A stretch of 64,000 bases of DNA from Leptolyngbya sp. SIO1E4 (lineage in GTDB: Bacteria; Cyanobacteriota; Cyanobacteriia; Phormidesmidales; Phormidesmidaceae). Positions 4,955-9,924 of this stretch are shown piece after piece (positions within the stretch are counted from its first letter, which is position 1; every line of letters starts with the position of its first letter). The stretch spans positions 1,736,001 through 1,800,000 of the forward strand of contig JAAHFU020000001.1 of NCBI GenBank assembly GCA_010672825.2. The letters run 5' to 3'. The notes beneath the pieces are model-generated. The model saw nothing but the letters and a program-made list of their open reading frames with translations, searched no databases and was not told the origin of the DNA. Position numbers and translations under genes: made by a program.

Positions 4955-5989
4955 TTAGTTATTTCGGGAGCGGAGCGTTATTGCGCCCAGCAAACCCGTC
5001 AACAGCATCCCGACGCTGATGGCAGGCTCAGGAACCTGGACAGCAACAGCCGTGACTTTCACAGTTTCATCTGCCTCATCTCCGAGAGAAGTGTAGACAT
5101 AATCCCAGGCATCAGTATCATCCAGCACATGAGCCCGTAAAAACGCCCCGCTCCAGCGACCAATGGTTTCGGTAGCAATCTCCTGCTCCAGCGTTGGCCT
5201 CACCGGATCACGCAGGGAATCTTCGTTCGTAATCCCATAGTGGTTGGCACCCGCTACTTCAACCAACACTTTTGGGGGGTTGAGCAGCTGATCAAAGGTG
5301 GCGATCGTCTCATCTGGCGCTGCAACGCCGTCCAACGTCCCAAAAATGAGCCCCGTCGGCACTTCATTATTAATCGGCGGAATGACGCCTGTGTTGGCGA
5401 TGTCAAAGTTGGCACCGTAAAAAATTCCTGCTTTCAGGGCTTCCGGCAAATCATAACTGTCGGTACAAAGGAGAAAGAAGCAATTATCTTGCGTTGAAGC
5501 CAGACCAACAGCCCCGCCAAAGGAGTGCCCCAGCAACCCTAATGCCTCTGGATTCAGCAATCCAGCGACTGGAGAATCGCGATTGTCATTTTCCAGGGTC
5601 ATAAAATCGAGCACATCCTGAACCTGGTCTTGCTCAGGGAATAAGCCTGGAAAGGGCGGGGCACCCGGTGCCGCCAGGAACCGCTCATTGTTGGGAACGA
5701 CGACGGTAAACCCATAACTCGAAACAATTTGAGCGTAGGTTTGATAGTCTGCCTTATCGACTGAGGCCCCTTGCAACAGCAGAACCACAGGGGTTGATTC
5801 ACTGGTGTCGGAGACCACTGGGTAGTAGATATCTGTCGGGTCGTTATTGATGACCGTTGAGTATTGGTTAATCTCTGCGAAGAGGGGCGCACCTGTAAAA
5901 GCAGCCGCGAGTGCAGGACTACCTATAGAAGCCAAGAGTAGTAAGCTGCCTGCAAAAGACTTAATGGGTAAGGAATGTTTAATCATCAA
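4955..5989 (-). CDS. exported alpha/beta hydrolase with PEP-CTERM sorting signal
   Basis: A 344-residue serine hydrolase of the chlorophyllase/dienelactone-hydrolase-like fold. It has an N-terminal signal peptide (residues ~1-30, ending ALA), a nucleophile elbow 'GHSFGG' with Ser156, an acid candidate at Asp220 ('GTLDG') and a His candidate at 250 ('GANHYG'). The last 26 residues are a textbook PEP-CTERM tail: V-P-E-P at 319-322, a hydrophobic stretch of about 18 residues, then the basic 'RSR'. Such tails are substrates for exosortase-type processing, so the enzyme is probably delivered to the cell surface or extracellular matrix. No exosortase lies in this window. The substrate is unknown; an ester or carboxyester is likely by fold. 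It is divergent from the LRR-TIR gene. Confidence 0.85.
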   Translation of the reverse strand: MMIKHSLPIKSFAGSLLLLASIGSPALAAAFTGAPLFAEINQYSTVINNDPTDIYYPVVSDTSESTPVVLLLQGASVDKADYQTYAQIVSSYGFTVVVPNNERFLAAPGAPPFPGLFPEQDQVQDVLDFMTLENDNRDSPVAGLLNPEALGLLGHSFGGAVGLASTQDNCFFLLCTDSYDLPEALKAGIFYGANFDIANTGVIPPINNEVPTGLIFGTLDGVAAPDETIATFDQLLNPPKVLVEVAGANHYGITNEDSLRDPVRPTLEQEIATETIGRWSGAFLRAHVLDDTDAWDYVYTSLGDEADETVKVTAVAVQVPEPAISVGMLLTGLLGAITLRSRNN

Positions 5990-6372
5990 TAATGCTCACG
6001 TAGATAGATTCAAAAGTGAATAATGGACTATTTATCCATAAAAATACTCTAGGAATTTAGAATCGTGATTAAAGAATTGATGAAGCACTCATCGCAAGAT
6101 CGCAACTCTGAATTTTCCTTAAAAGCAGAGTATTCAAATTCACTATAAATCTGAATACTCTGCTTTTAAGAGAACATTTTTTTGTCCGAAAAAAAGCCTC
6201 TTAAAATGATAGAAATTCGTCAATGAAGCTACTGGTAGGAGAGGCTTTCTAGGGAGGAACTCAGCCTAACCGTCGCCAAATCCTCAAATCAACGGATACC
6301 CTATAGGCAAAGCACGTCAGAACCCATCTACCCATCCACCCATCTACCCATCCACCCTCCCACTTCCTCAAC
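5990..6372. other. 383-base divergent intergenic region with inverted repeats
   Basis: It lies between two genes transcribed away from each other, and is A/T-rich in its first half. It holds a long perfect inverted repeat (6118-6170), a second shorter one (AAAGCCTCT at 6193-6201 and AGAGGCTTT at 6240-6248), and a pyrimidine-rich run of four 8-base units, CCCATCTA/CCCATCCA (6323-6354), just before the start of the next gene. Confidence 0.6.
6118..6170. repeat. 19-bp perfect inverted repeat
   Basis: The left arm 6118-6136 and right arm 6152-6170 are exact reverse complements over 19 bases, starting CTTAAAAGCAGAG on the left, with a 15-base A/T-rich spacer. Both flanking genes point away from it, so it is not a terminator by position. 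It could be a miniature mobile element, a recombination scar or an operator. Confidence 0.8.
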
Positions 6373-9300
6373 ATGCCTTCCTTCCTTGCCAGCTCTCAGG
6401 GATTGCAACAGCTACACGCTGCAAAAGCACGGCTGAACTTGAGCTTTGCCGCCATTGCTAAGCAGGCAGGGGTGAGTGTGGATACGGTGAGCCGATTGTT
6501 TCACCCAGAGCGGGGCAAGCGAGTGAGCCAGGTGAGTATTGAGGCTGTTTTACAGGTACTGGATTTGCGCCTTGAGGAGATTGTGCCCGCAGGAGAATGG
6601 CCGATTGAAATAGCAGATAACTCTACGTTAGTAAAAGCTTCTTTGGAAGAAGCAGAAAAATGGATTCGAAGGGCGATAGAAAACAAGTCTAATGTCCTAG
6701 ATTTATCAGGATTAAAGCTTGTCATTTTGCCAAAGAGTATCGGCCAACTTAAAAAAATAACTCGGCTTTACCTCCAGGAAAATCAACTCACCTCGGTGCC
6801 CAAAGAATTGGGTAACCTTAGCAATCTTCAGGAGCTTTATCTCCACAATAATTATCTCAGCTCAGTGCCAAAAGAATTAGGGCAGCTCAACAATCTAACA
6901 GAGCTTCATCTTCATTACAATCAACTCAGCTCAGTGCCGAAAGAATTGAGTCAACTCAATAATCTAACTGGGCTTTATCTTCATCACAATCAGTTAAATT
7001 CGATACCAAAAGAATTGGGTAGCCTTACTAATTTGTCAGAATTCTATATTGCTCGAAATCGACTATCTTCAATACCCAAAGAATTAGGTCAGCTAATAAA
7101 TTTAAAGAGACTCGACGTATCCGTTAATCAGTTACCCTCAATACCTAAAGAGATAGGTCAGTTAACCAAGCTAACTCACCTCGACGTATCCGTTAATCAG
7201 TTATCCTCAATACCTAAAGAGATAGGTCAGTTAACAAGTTTAAAGAGGCTTGATATATCTGTCAATCAGCTATCCTCAATACCCAAAGAAATAGGTCGGT
7301 TAACCAATCTAAATCAGTTTTTTGCCCCTAAGAATAGACTGACTTCAGTTCCTAAAGAGCTAGGACAGCTAACCAAGCTAACTCGATTTAATGTCTCTGC
7401 AAACCAATTGCGCTCTTTGCCAAAGGAACTAAGCAAGTTAGTCACTCTAACTCAACTTGATGCCTCTGTCAATAAAATAACTTCTGTGCCAATAGACTTC
7501 TTGAAATTGACTGAATTAAAAATCCTCGCTTTCAGAAGGAATAAAATCACTGAATTACCAAACATTTTTGGTCAACTCAAAAAATTAGAAATATTTGATA
7601 TTAGAGGAAATCATCTGACGAAAGTTCCAGATAGCATTGCTTTTTTAACTAATCTGAGAATACTTTTTATACATTTCAACAAGCTGACTTCATTGCCCAT
7701 TTCCATTGGCAATCTAGTTGATCTAGAGGTACTTGATCTCCGTAATAATTGCCTGGAATCCTTACCTGAGACCATTGGAAATCTTGTCAATCTAAAAAGG
7801 CTTGATCTTCGTAATAATCATTTGAGAAAACTGCCTGAAAATATCAGTCAACTTATTGTCTTAGATAACCTATATCTTCATGGGAATGAAAACTTGGGCA
7901 TTTCCATGGAAATTTTAGGCCCTGGACACGAAGAGGTAAGAAATGGAGCGACACCGACTAATCCACAAGATATCCTAAATTATTATTTTCGCATCCAGTC
8001 TGATCGCACCCCCCTCAACGAAGCCAAACTCATTCTCGTCGGCTTTGGAACTGTGGGCAAAACCTCTCTCGTAAATCGCCTCATCCACGACACTTTCGAC
8101 CCTAATTCAGAGAAAACCAAAGGCATCCAGATTACCCCGTGGGAGATGCGTCTGAATAATGCTGAAGATATCAAACTCCACGTTTGGGACTTTGGTGGGC
8201 AGGAAATTATGCACTCCACTCACCAGTTTTTTCTCACCGAGCGCAGCCTCTACCTGCTAGTGCTCAATGGTCGTCAGGGTCATGAAGATGCTGACGCCGA
8301 ATACTGGCTAGAGCTGATCCAGAGCTTTGGCGACAATTCCCCCGTGATTGTGGTGCTCAACAAAGTCCAAGCGCATCCCTTCGACGTGAATCGCAGAGCC
8401 CTGCAAGAAAAGTTTCCGGCTATTCGCGCCTTCATCCACACCGACTGTGGAGCAGATATTGGCATCAGCGAGTTGCGAACCGCCATCGAACGAGAAACCG
8501 ATCGCCTGGAATACCTGCGTGCCCCCTTCCCCTCCAGCTGGGTCACCATCAAAGACCGGCTGACCGGGATGCCCGACAACTACATCTCCTTTGAGAAATA
8601 CCGCGACATTTGCCAGCAAGACGGCGAAACCGACCTCAGCGCTCAAGACTCCCTCGCCGTGCATCTCCATAGCCTCGGCATTGCCCTTAACTACAAAGAC
8701 GACACCCGCCTGCGCGATACCCACGTCCTCAACCCTCACTGGGTCACCAACGGCATCTACACCCTGCTCAACGCCCATGAACTCGCCGACACCCAAGGCG
8801 AGCTAGCGGTGAGTTGTCTCACCCGCACCCTCGACCCCCAAACCTATCCCCGCGAACGCCACGGCTTCCTGCTGGAACTGATGCGTAAGTTTGAGCTGTG
8901 CTTTCCTTTTGCCGAAGAAGACAACCGCTACCTGATTCCCGACCTGCTCGACAAACAACAGCCCCGCGAAGCCACAGAATTCAACCCTGCTAACTGCCTC
9001 AACTTTCGCTATCGCTACCCCATCCTGCCAGAGGGCTTACTGCCTCGCTTCATCGTCCGCACCCATGTCTTGAGCGAGCAACAACTGCGCTGGCGCACCG
9101 GAGTCATCCTCAACTTTGAAGGCAACCGCGCCCTGGTCAAAGCCGATCGCCAGGATCGCTGCGTCACCATCAGTGTTGATGGGCCAATCACCAGCCGTCG
9201 CCGTCTCCTGGCTGTGATTCGTTCTGACTTCGATCGCATCCACCGCAGTTTCAAATTCATTCCCCAAGAACTGGTTCCTATCCCCGGTCACCCCTCCGTC

Positions 9301-9924
9301 ACCGTTACCTATAAGGATCTATTGGTCAGGGAAAAGAAAGGCCGCAAGTCCTTCGAAGTCGTTTTGGACAATGACGAGCTGCTGGAACTCAACGTCCAGG
9401 ATCTGCTCAACGGTGTGGATATCGAAGGCAGCCGTCAACGATCGGCTAGGGAAGAAGGCCGCGATCGCCCCCTGCGTCTGTTCTACAGCTACTCTCATAG
9501 GGACGAAGTGCTCCGCGACCAGCTCGATACCCACCTCAAAATCCTGGAGCGCCAGAACCTGATTCAACCCTGGCACGATCGCCGCATCGACCCCGGCATG
9601 GACTACGCCACCGAAATCGACGACAACTTGAACCAGGCCGACATCATTTTGCTGCTCGTCAGCGCGGACTTTATCAGCTCCAAATACTGCTATGAGATCG
9701 AGTTACCACAAGCTCTCCAGCGTCACAAATCAGGAGAGGCTACTGTTATTCCCATCCTCCTTCGCCCTGTGGACTGGCAAGCGTCTGTACTGGCCAAGCT
9801 CAACGCGCTGCCCACGAATTGGCAAGCGGTGACTCAGTGGGGAGATCGTGATGCGGCTTGGCTCGACGTTGAAACCGGCATTAAACAGGCCGTTGCATCA
9901 CGCAAAGCCAGCATCAGGCCGTAA
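6373..9924 (+). CDS. HTH-LRR-Roc-COR-TIR multidomain protein (bacterial ROCO-type)
   Basis: 1183 residues. Domains in order: an N-terminal helix-turn-helix-like region (~10-72, 'SFAAIAKQAGVSVDTVSRLF'); leucine-rich repeats from ~100 to ~520 with about 17 near-regular 23-residue units of the pattern L-x-V-x-x-N-x-L-x-S-x-P-K-E-L-G-x-L; a Roc GTPase with P-loop GFGTVGKT (557-564), switch DFGGQE (606-611) and NKVQ (663-666); a COR-like region (~720-1020); and a TIR domain from residue 1034 ('LFYSYSHRDE') to ~1175. In the TIR, 'CYEIEL' aligns with the C-x-x-x-E element that carries the catalytic Glu in NAD-cleaving TIRs. Roc-COR proteins are GTP-switch dimers, and bacterial TIRs often make or cleave NAD-derived signals. 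A receptor or defence role is inference. The LRR part is A/T-richer than the GTPase-TIR part. Confidence 0.92.
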   Translation: MPSFLASSQGLQQLHAAKARLNLSFAAIAKQAGVSVDTVSRLFHPERGKRVSQVSIEAVLQVLDLRLEEIVPAGEWPIEIADNSTLVKASLEEAEKWIRRAIENKSNVLDLSGLKLVILPKSIGQLKKITRLYLQENQLTSVPKELGNLSNLQELYLHNNYLSSVPKELGQLNNLTELHLHYNQLSSVPKELSQLNNLTGLYLHHNQLNSIPKELGSLTNLSEFYIARNRLSSIPKELGQLINLKRLDVSVNQLPSIPKEIGQLTKLTHLDVSVNQLSSIPKEIGQLTSLKRLDISVNQLSSIPKEIGRLTNLNQFFAPKNRLTSVPKELGQLTKLTRFNVSANQLRSLPKELSKLVTLTQLDASVNKITSVPIDFLKLTELKILAFRRNKITELPNIFGQLKKLEIFDIRGNHLTKVPDSIAFLTNLRILFIHFNKLTSLPISIGNLVDLEVLDLRNNCLESLPETIGNLVNLKRLDLRNNHLRKLPENISQLIVLDNLYLHGNENLGISMEILGPGHEEVRNGATPTNPQDILNYYFRIQSDRTPLNEAKLILVGFGTVGKTSLVNRLIHDTFDPNSEKTKGIQITPWEMRLNNAEDIKLHVWDFGGQEIMHSTHQFFLTERSLYLLVLNGRQGHEDADAEYWLELIQSFGDNSPVIVVLNKVQAHPFDVNRRALQEKFPAIRAFIHTDCGADIGISELRTAIERETDRLEYLRAPFPSSWVTIKDRLTGMPDNYISFEKYRDICQQDGETDLSAQDSLAVHLHSLGIALNYKDDTRLRDTHVLNPHWVTNGIYTLLNAHELADTQGELAVSCLTRTLDPQTYPRERHGFLLELMRKFELCFPFAEEDNRYLIPDLLDKQQPREATEFNPANCLNFRYRYPILPEGLLPRFIVRTHVLSEQQLRWRTGVILNFEGNRALVKADRQDRCVTISVDGPITSRRRLLAVIRSDFDRIHRSFKFIPQELVPIPGHPSVTVTYKDLLVREKKGRKSFEVVLDNDELLELNVQDLLNGVDIEGSRQRSAREEGRDRPLRLFYSYSHRDEVLRDQLDTHLKILERQNLIQPWHDRRIDPGMDYATEIDDNLNQADIILLLVSADFISSKYCYEIELPQALQRHKSGEATVIPILLRPVDWQASVLAKLNALPTNWQAVTQWGDRDAAWLDVETGIKQAVASRKASIRP
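7111..7235 (+). repeat. near-identical 69-bp LRR units inside the ROCO-type gene
   Basis: Bases 7111-7166 recur at 7180-7235 with a single mismatch (ACCCTCA versus ATCCTCA), at a period of exactly 69 bases, i.e. one 23-residue LRR. A third, more diverged unit follows from 7249. The match at nucleotide level suggests recent unequal exchange or duplication of LRR units. Confidence 0.85.

Follow-up and report, generated by a model that had tools for sequence, protein, structure and literature searches.

In the present work, we examine a gene of the filamentous cyanobacterium Leptolyngbya sp. SIO1E4 that lies in a stretch of 64,000 nucleotides of contig JAAHFU020000001.1 (hereafter the window) and encodes a protein in which a helix-turn-helix (HTH) head, a leucine-rich repeat (LRR) array, a Roc-COR switch and a C-terminal TIR domain are joined in one chain. 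We will argue that the product is most likely a stand-alone Roco-TIR receptor that is gated by its LRRs and predicted to cleave nicotinamide adenine dinucleotide (NAD), the molecule that TIRs of this kind destroy in the immunity of plants and bacteria. That it acts as a stand-alone cytoplasmic conflict (immune-type) receptor is given a probability of about 0.55; the immune reading is based on domain logic and on a short module that the family has in common with NB-ARC, NACHT, nSTAND and TIR proteins of the genome.

Results and Discussion

The open reading frame at 6373-9924(+) starts with ATG, contains no internal stop and is intact. Profile searches for each domain place the LRR (LRR_8), Roc, COR-A, COR-B and TIR (TIR_2) parts above the curated Pfam cut-offs, and only the HTH falls just below (24.5 of 27 bits for LacI). 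The AlphaFold2 prediction of the full chain yields the HTH, 18 LRRs, Roc, COR-A/B and TIR, with a mean predicted local distance difference test score (pLDDT) of 86.4, and its top Foldseek match is the LRR-Roc-COR structure of Chlorobium tepidum (7.6e-41). Since the overall predicted template modelling score is 0.52, the relative placement of the domains in this model is unreliable. A preliminary description, made from the sequence alone, had proposed the five-domain chain, and these results uphold it, in the case of the HTH through the orthologues and the confident model. The coordinates are collected in Table 1. NCBIfam matches to the type III effectors XopAC, XopL and SlrP concern the LRRs only and are far under the cut-off, and were rejected.

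Table 1. Features of the gene in window coordinates. Pfam E-values are those for the whole 1183-residue protein.
Feature	Residues	Position	Strand	Basis
Whole gene, HTH-LRR-Roc-COR-TIR protein	1-1183	6373..9924	+	open reading frame, Pfam, orthologues
HTH head, Cro/LacI-like, recognition helix VSVDTVSRLFHP	8-66	6394..6570	+	AlphaFold2 helices, HTH_31 in relatives, orthologue conservation
Flexible linker HTH-LRR	74-82	6592..6618	+	pLDDT < 50
LRR sensor, 18 repeats of 23 residues, segment of low third-position GC content	105-511	6685..7905	+	AlphaFold2 strands, DNA repeats, third-position GC content
Roc GTPase-like domain	548-716	8014..8520	+	PF08477, E=2.1e-30 (552-665)
G1/P-loop GFGTVGKTS, intact	557-565	8041..8067	+	alignment columns
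G3/switch II DFGGQ, intact (WDFGGQE in context)	606-610	8188..8202	+	alignment columns
G4 motif NKVQ, without the base-reading Asp of NKxD	663-666	8359..8370	+	alignment; solved Rocos NKID
COR-A	720-859	8530..8949	+	PF16095, E=7.1e-40
COR-B (dimerisation part)	874-1014	8992..9414	+	PF25497, E=2e-34
Flexible linker COR-TIR	1018-1030	9424..9462	+	pLDDT < 50 at 1018-1020 and 1022-1030
TIR domain	1034-1181	9472..9915	+	PF13676 (TIR_2), E=1.6e-12 (1037-1144)
Glu1110 codon, candidate catalytic glutamate	1110	9700..9702	+	invariance, alignment, translation

We consider first the switch. Human LRRK2, known from Parkinson's disease, has the same LRR-Roc-COR core. In the window protein Roc is directly followed by COR, as in Roco proteins, with PF08477, PF16095 and PF25497 all above cut-off and a fold match to the C. 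tepidum protein (CtRoco), and the Roc-COR part shares 44% of 317 aligned residues with Methanosarcina barkeri Roco2 (4wnr). The part had been described as a GTPase switch; Roc-COR is indeed present and G1 and G3 are intact, but the guanine-reading G4 motif is degenerate, so that the GTPase activity is a prediction. In all 19 rows of the family alignment A1 the motif reads NK[VI]x in place of NKxD. The related cyanobacterial Rocos L137, L143 and L151 (L-numbers label individual loci) retain the Asp, while it is missing also in more distant members of the TIR subfamily (L157, L161, L165, L175, L177 and L180), and its loss therefore marks this subfamily. Judged from the motif, Roc may respond to a nucleotide other than GTP.

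At the other end of the chain, the TIR domain modelled alone has a pLDDT of 86.7 and VIA Z scores of 12.5-15.8 to solved TIRs (SPARTA TIR-APAZ 15.3, RUN1 14.8, AbTir 14.7 and the animal adaptor MAL 15.8). As both NADase TIRs and animal adaptor TIRs match, the fold alone cannot tell an enzyme from a scaffold. The preliminary description had placed the Glu of CYEIEL, residues 1106-1111, at the catalytic position. This motif contains two glutamates. The first, Glu1108, is variable (D, E or K in orthologues, S in one paralogous TIR), whereas the second, Glu1110, is invariant in the 19 family members of A1 as well as in the 27 TIRs, from two classes, of alignment A3, and it is to the second, one residue out of register, that the assignment applies. 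When 20 further TIRs from this genome are aligned with it by MAFFT, Glu1110 falls in the canonical Glu column, the present class having one additional residue, and the HMMER alignment to Cat1 likewise pairs it with the canonical TIR Glu. The class motif can be written S-x-D-F-x-x-S-x-Y-C-[YF]-x-x-E. The conserved Glu in helix alpha-C of NAD-cleaving TIRs is accordingly found here as Glu1110, with a one-residue insertion, which makes it a candidate for NAD cleavage.

The LRR sensor is the fastest-changing part of the protein. AlphaFold2 gives 18 LRR strands between residues 108 and 501 with a spacing of exactly 23 residues (LRR_8 E = 1.3e-43), encoded by 69-bp tandem repeats. Among the HTH-headed orthologues the LRR part is 40-57% identical to that of the window protein and has about 6 to 19 repeats, as compared to identities of 75-87% for Roc, 73-81% for COR, 60-69% for TIR and 52-75% for HTH.

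The sensor also differs in composition from the rest of the gene. The GC content at third codon positions (GC3) is 0.57 in the HTH, 0.34 in the LRR and 0.67 in the Roc-COR-TIR part, and the shift of the LRR adjusted for amino acid is -0.33 (z -10.1); z is below -4 in eleven other HTH-headed orthologues. When genes are scanned for their most deviant segment, the value is -9.6 for the window gene and at most 4.8 for other long genes of the same loci, excepting family members and one Roco paralogue (6.8). LRR coding does not by itself force such a step, since the LRR genes L003, L059, L161 and L175 show none.

Other modules are found in the same position in some relatives. L165 has an AAA_35 head and LRRs (GC3 about 0.2-0.3) ahead of Roc-COR-TIR (about 0.5), in L069 two copies of an EAD-like module, also of low GC3, stand in for most LRRs, and in L076 and L180 a TIR occupies the sensor position on the same scaffold. 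We read this pattern as a sensor segment swapped in from AT-richer sources, with the HTH and the Roc-COR-TIR scaffold staying in place. An alternative to exchange is repeat homogenisation that holds back compositional drift, and the low-GC relatives L138 and L139, where the LRRs are GC-richer than their flanks, fit either process. L180 (7584-9962) and L076 (8097-10568) are TIR-Roc-COR-TIR proteins, in which an N-terminal TIR replaces the LRRs and one chain carries two different TIRs.

The HTH head is modelled as four confident helices (8-21, 25-32, 36-43 and 53-62). HTH_31 is found in 11 of 28 relatives at E<=0.001, the orthologue L069 clears its cut-off (27.2 of 27 bits), and the recognition helix is near-invariant among the orthologues. 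We have also considered the head as an adaptor common to other protein types, but every match is the head of a member of this family or a truncated upstream copy of it, and this option was rejected. A DNA tether for the receptor, or control of its own gene, is the probable role of the head. We rejected autoregulation by way of a conserved palindrome, since the regions upstream of the window gene and its relatives yielded none, only a -10-like CGGATACCCT box in the window and in some relatives.

These data bear on another scenario, namely that the protein is a transcription regulator in which the HTH binds DNA under the control of Roc-COR and the LRRs, and the TIR does no more than aid oligomerisation. 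The confident fold and almost invariant recognition helix of the HTH are in line with this, as is its confinement to one clade in which it is largely retained. However, L165, L167, L135 and L177, which are close relatives and retain Roc-COR-TIR, lack the HTH or have another part in its place, and the upstream regions offer just the -10-like box, which makes this scenario very improbable.

Two observations concern the DNA upstream of the gene. In the window, a long palindrome at 6112-6179 (near-perfect stem of ~20 bp, fold z -8.3) sits between the divergent genes at 4955-5989(-) and 6373(+); it is present in a single copy in the genome and was rejected as a repeated element. Genomes of the Nodosilinea type carry, upstream of the receptor gene, one to three further copies of its 5' end (about -130 to +50/+190), truncated at different codons and ~0.75-1.1 kb apart, with small toxin-antitoxin-like genes between them (L061, 3462-6300; L070, 3280-6300; L066, 11960-13140; L064, 254-1760). 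Every copy in L061 starts with a ~70-bp hairpin repeat. The arrangement looks as though insertions had occurred repeatedly at the start of this gene.

We now turn our attention to the distribution of the family. About 18 of the 65 genomes of the order contain orthologues, with 63-78% identity over the 636 residues of Roc-COR-TIR, and among 386 sampled genomes of the phylum there is one more close full-length relative (G358, 63%), which has no HTH. In a scan of 84,980 species representatives, the family is found in Leptolyngbya, Nodosilinea, Halomicronema, Stenomitos, Drouetiella, Lyngbya and Adonisia. The non-cyanobacterial relatives are from the planctomycete Candidatus Anammoxibacter and a Methylococcaceae metagenome-assembled genome (MAG), both without the HTH, and here MAG binning may err.

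All 18 HTH-headed proteins are cyanobacterial. In the Roc-COR tree they fall within one clade of 26 rows (UFBoot 100, SH-aLRT 98), of which the other eight are contig-cut (six) or HTH-less (two). The simplest history would be that the HTH was gained once and later lost or replaced. In the wider TIR subfamily 30 of 31 rows end in the same TIR class, while the C-termini of the tree as a whole are TIRs of two classes or other domains. As the other TIR class occurs on two separate parts of the tree, the effectors have been exchanged. The source genome alone has at least six Roco genes with differing C-termini.

The gene lies among a histidine kinase, a dehydrogenase, a SnoaL-like protein, a hexapeptide transferase, an alpha/beta hydrolase, two cupins and a GNAT protein, ordinary genes of metabolism or regulation. 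The chromosomal neighbours of the receptor gene are partly conserved in several Nodosilinea-type genomes, and a part of its setting recurs in several genomes of genus g8. No match was found in 50,697 phage records, and on plasmids there are only relatives that match 70% of the query or less, none of them full-length. This chromosomal housekeeping setting, and the fact that many TIRs serve as adaptors, would be consistent with general stress or developmental signalling, in which the TIR is a non-catalytic scaffold and the LRR reads an endogenous partner. On the other hand, Glu1110 is kept in every member while the surrounding residues vary, the number and composition of the LRRs shift fast with exchange of the sensor, and the family is present in only some genomes of the order, in some of which the gene is broken. 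We therefore consider a signalling role of this kind to be rather unlikely.

Broken genes, with stops, split pieces or a change of frame, are seen at L077 and L150 (Nodosilinea nodulosa PCC 7104) and at L174 (Leptolyngbya sp. SIOISBB), and PCC 7104 carries the broken gene also as a second degenerate copy. They may reflect the kind of turnover expected of a dispensable conflict gene, or else sequencing errors.

Another option considered was a Thoeris-like signaller, in which the TIR, instead of depleting NAD itself, makes a cyclic ADP-ribose-type messenger for an effector encoded elsewhere. Among defence models, the TIR matches ThsB of PADLOC best (PDLC00420, E=1.7e-53), and potential partners abound in the genome, which encodes many TIR and STAND proteins and has 35 TIR_2 matches in 8.2 Mb. 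Against this, the window holds no neighbouring effector; the genes adjacent to the receptor encode the alpha/beta hydrolase and the cupins instead of ThsA. The STALD domain (PF18185) has no match in the genome, a weak negative as the model passed its cut-off in 0 of 14 control genomes too. Taken together, this option is unlikely. Several of the TIR_2 proteins have three or more tandem TIR copies (e.g. C6:185981-187642 and C1:2635796-2637448).

The connection of the family to conflict proteins is instead made by shared parts. The module that replaces most LRRs in L069 (8711-11980) is ~68 residues long, with the consensus R..L...L..LP...FE.LVFALNPP.GILPG..APQG.RA.ALL.WAE.P.GCGL, and occurs at 16 places in the source genome (L188-L203). 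It stands at the C-terminus of two Roco paralogues (L003/L004) and is also found on NB-ARC, NACHT, nSTAND1 and TIR proteins. It links the family to STAND/TIR conflict proteins, and does so through common modules and not through gene neighbourhood. We describe it as an EAD-like adaptor; identity with EAD1 (PF19955) was rejected, as it has no Pfam match whatever. Several copies cluster at C3:909-912 kb.

Proposed mechanism

On this basis, the following cycle can be envisaged for the immune-type receptor. In the resting state, the LRRs and the Roc-COR dimer would mask the C-terminal TIRs, which are on flexible tethers, or keep them separate. The LRR array would sense a protein derived from an invader or from damage, or some other ligand. 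TIR NADases work by self-association, e.g. in SPARTA and the plant resistosomes. CtRoco, for its part, is largely dimeric in the nucleotide-free and GDP-bound states and monomeric when GTP is bound (PMC5714945). GTP swings its LRR about the LRR-Roc linker, and the open, active form is favoured by a nanobody that binds the concave side of the LRR (PMC11052575). Binding of the ligand to the LRR in place of the nanobody, together with nucleotide exchange in Roc, could similarly lead to LRR rotation and a changed oligomeric state, by which the tethered TIRs would be released or re-arranged. These would then self-associate and cleave NAD through Glu1110, so that the infected filament cell is starved or killed, or an ADP-ribose signal is made.

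A number of points weigh against this proposal. The weakest step is the passage from GTP-driven monomerisation to TIR association, since GTP yields monomers of CtRoco, which by itself would not bring the TIRs together. The G4 motif lacks its Asp, hence the GTP switch is possibly not an ordinary one. Glu1110 fits the catalytic Glu only after a shift of one residue, and the HMMER alignment to TLR2 pairs Glu1108 instead, although the latter is not conserved. PADLOC finds weak generic matches only, and no ThsA, over 48 open reading frames of the window, and the 104 neighbour genes of 14 homologues include no recurrent defence family and are mostly unrelated housekeeping genes; the single matches to an SNF2 helicase (ZorD/DpdE), DrmD and PDC are generic or isolated. 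The defence-gene association named earlier as a check was thus not borne out, as there is no defence island in the window or around the homologues. Finally, we found no experimental study of any bacterial Roco-TIR in the open literature.

The immune-type role put forward in the preliminary description consequently loses the support of gene neighbourhood, but retains that of the domain logic (variable LRR, conserved switch, effector), of the class prediction of Kaur et al. discussed below, and of the shared ~68-residue module. A more elaborate and tentative version is also conceivable, in which a Roco tethered to DNA by its HTH gates a TIR NADase, the Asp-less Roc perhaps uses a nucleotide other than GTP, and foreign sensor cassettes (LRR arrays, an AAA-like ATPase, EAD-like modules or TIR) would be swapped between fixed ends in the manner of NLRs.

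Comparison with known systems

The LRR-Roc-COR-effector class, including members with a TIR, is already known and has been predicted from genomes to consist of conflict systems: Kaur et al. (eLife 2021) describe LRR-AP-GTPase-COR proteins whose C-terminal domains are of at least 24 kinds, and predict a counter-invader role for them (PMC8195603). As in their AP-GTPase proteins, fast-evolving N-terminal LRRs precede a conserved switch (40-57% identity against 75-87% for Roc here), the C-terminal effector is exchangeable, and several paralogues with different effectors occur per genome. The main text of that paper names no HTH head, loss of the G4 Asp or sensor-segment exchange. To our knowledge, the new elements are the HTH head, the loss of the G4 Asp across the TIR subfamily, and a sensor segment whose composition is foreign to both its flanks, with other modules in its place in some relatives.

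CtRoco (PDB 6hlu, 8r4b-d) has the same LRR-Roc-COR order and fold, but neither HTH nor TIR, and its G4 motif is NKID as opposed to the NKVQ type. ThsB of Thoeris is similar in the TIR sequence but has no LRR-Roc-COR, and the window gene has no ThsA partner. The candidate LRR-ROCO immune receptors of brown algae share LRR-ROC-COR, rapidly shuffled LRRs and a proposed immune role; they differ in being eukaryotic, in using exon shuffling and in having no C-terminal TIR or HTH (PMC11378527).

The function of prokaryotic Rocos is a long-open question, for which the present family offers a testable output, NAD cleavage through Glu1110, as well as a natural series of swapped sensors for testing ligand recognition. 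The plant TIR-NLRs RPP1, Roq1 and RUN1 also combine an LRR sensor, a nucleotide switch and a TIR of the same fold in one chain. The likeness to them drawn in the preliminary description holds as a functional analogy, with Roc-COR replacing NB-ARC, for which the window protein has no Pfam match. It does not extend to the switch, which is Ras-like and not a STAND ATPase, nor to the domain order, which is reversed with the TIR at the C-terminus. If the proposal is correct, cyanobacteria would possess single-chain receptors that follow the logic of plant NLRs on a Ras-like switch.

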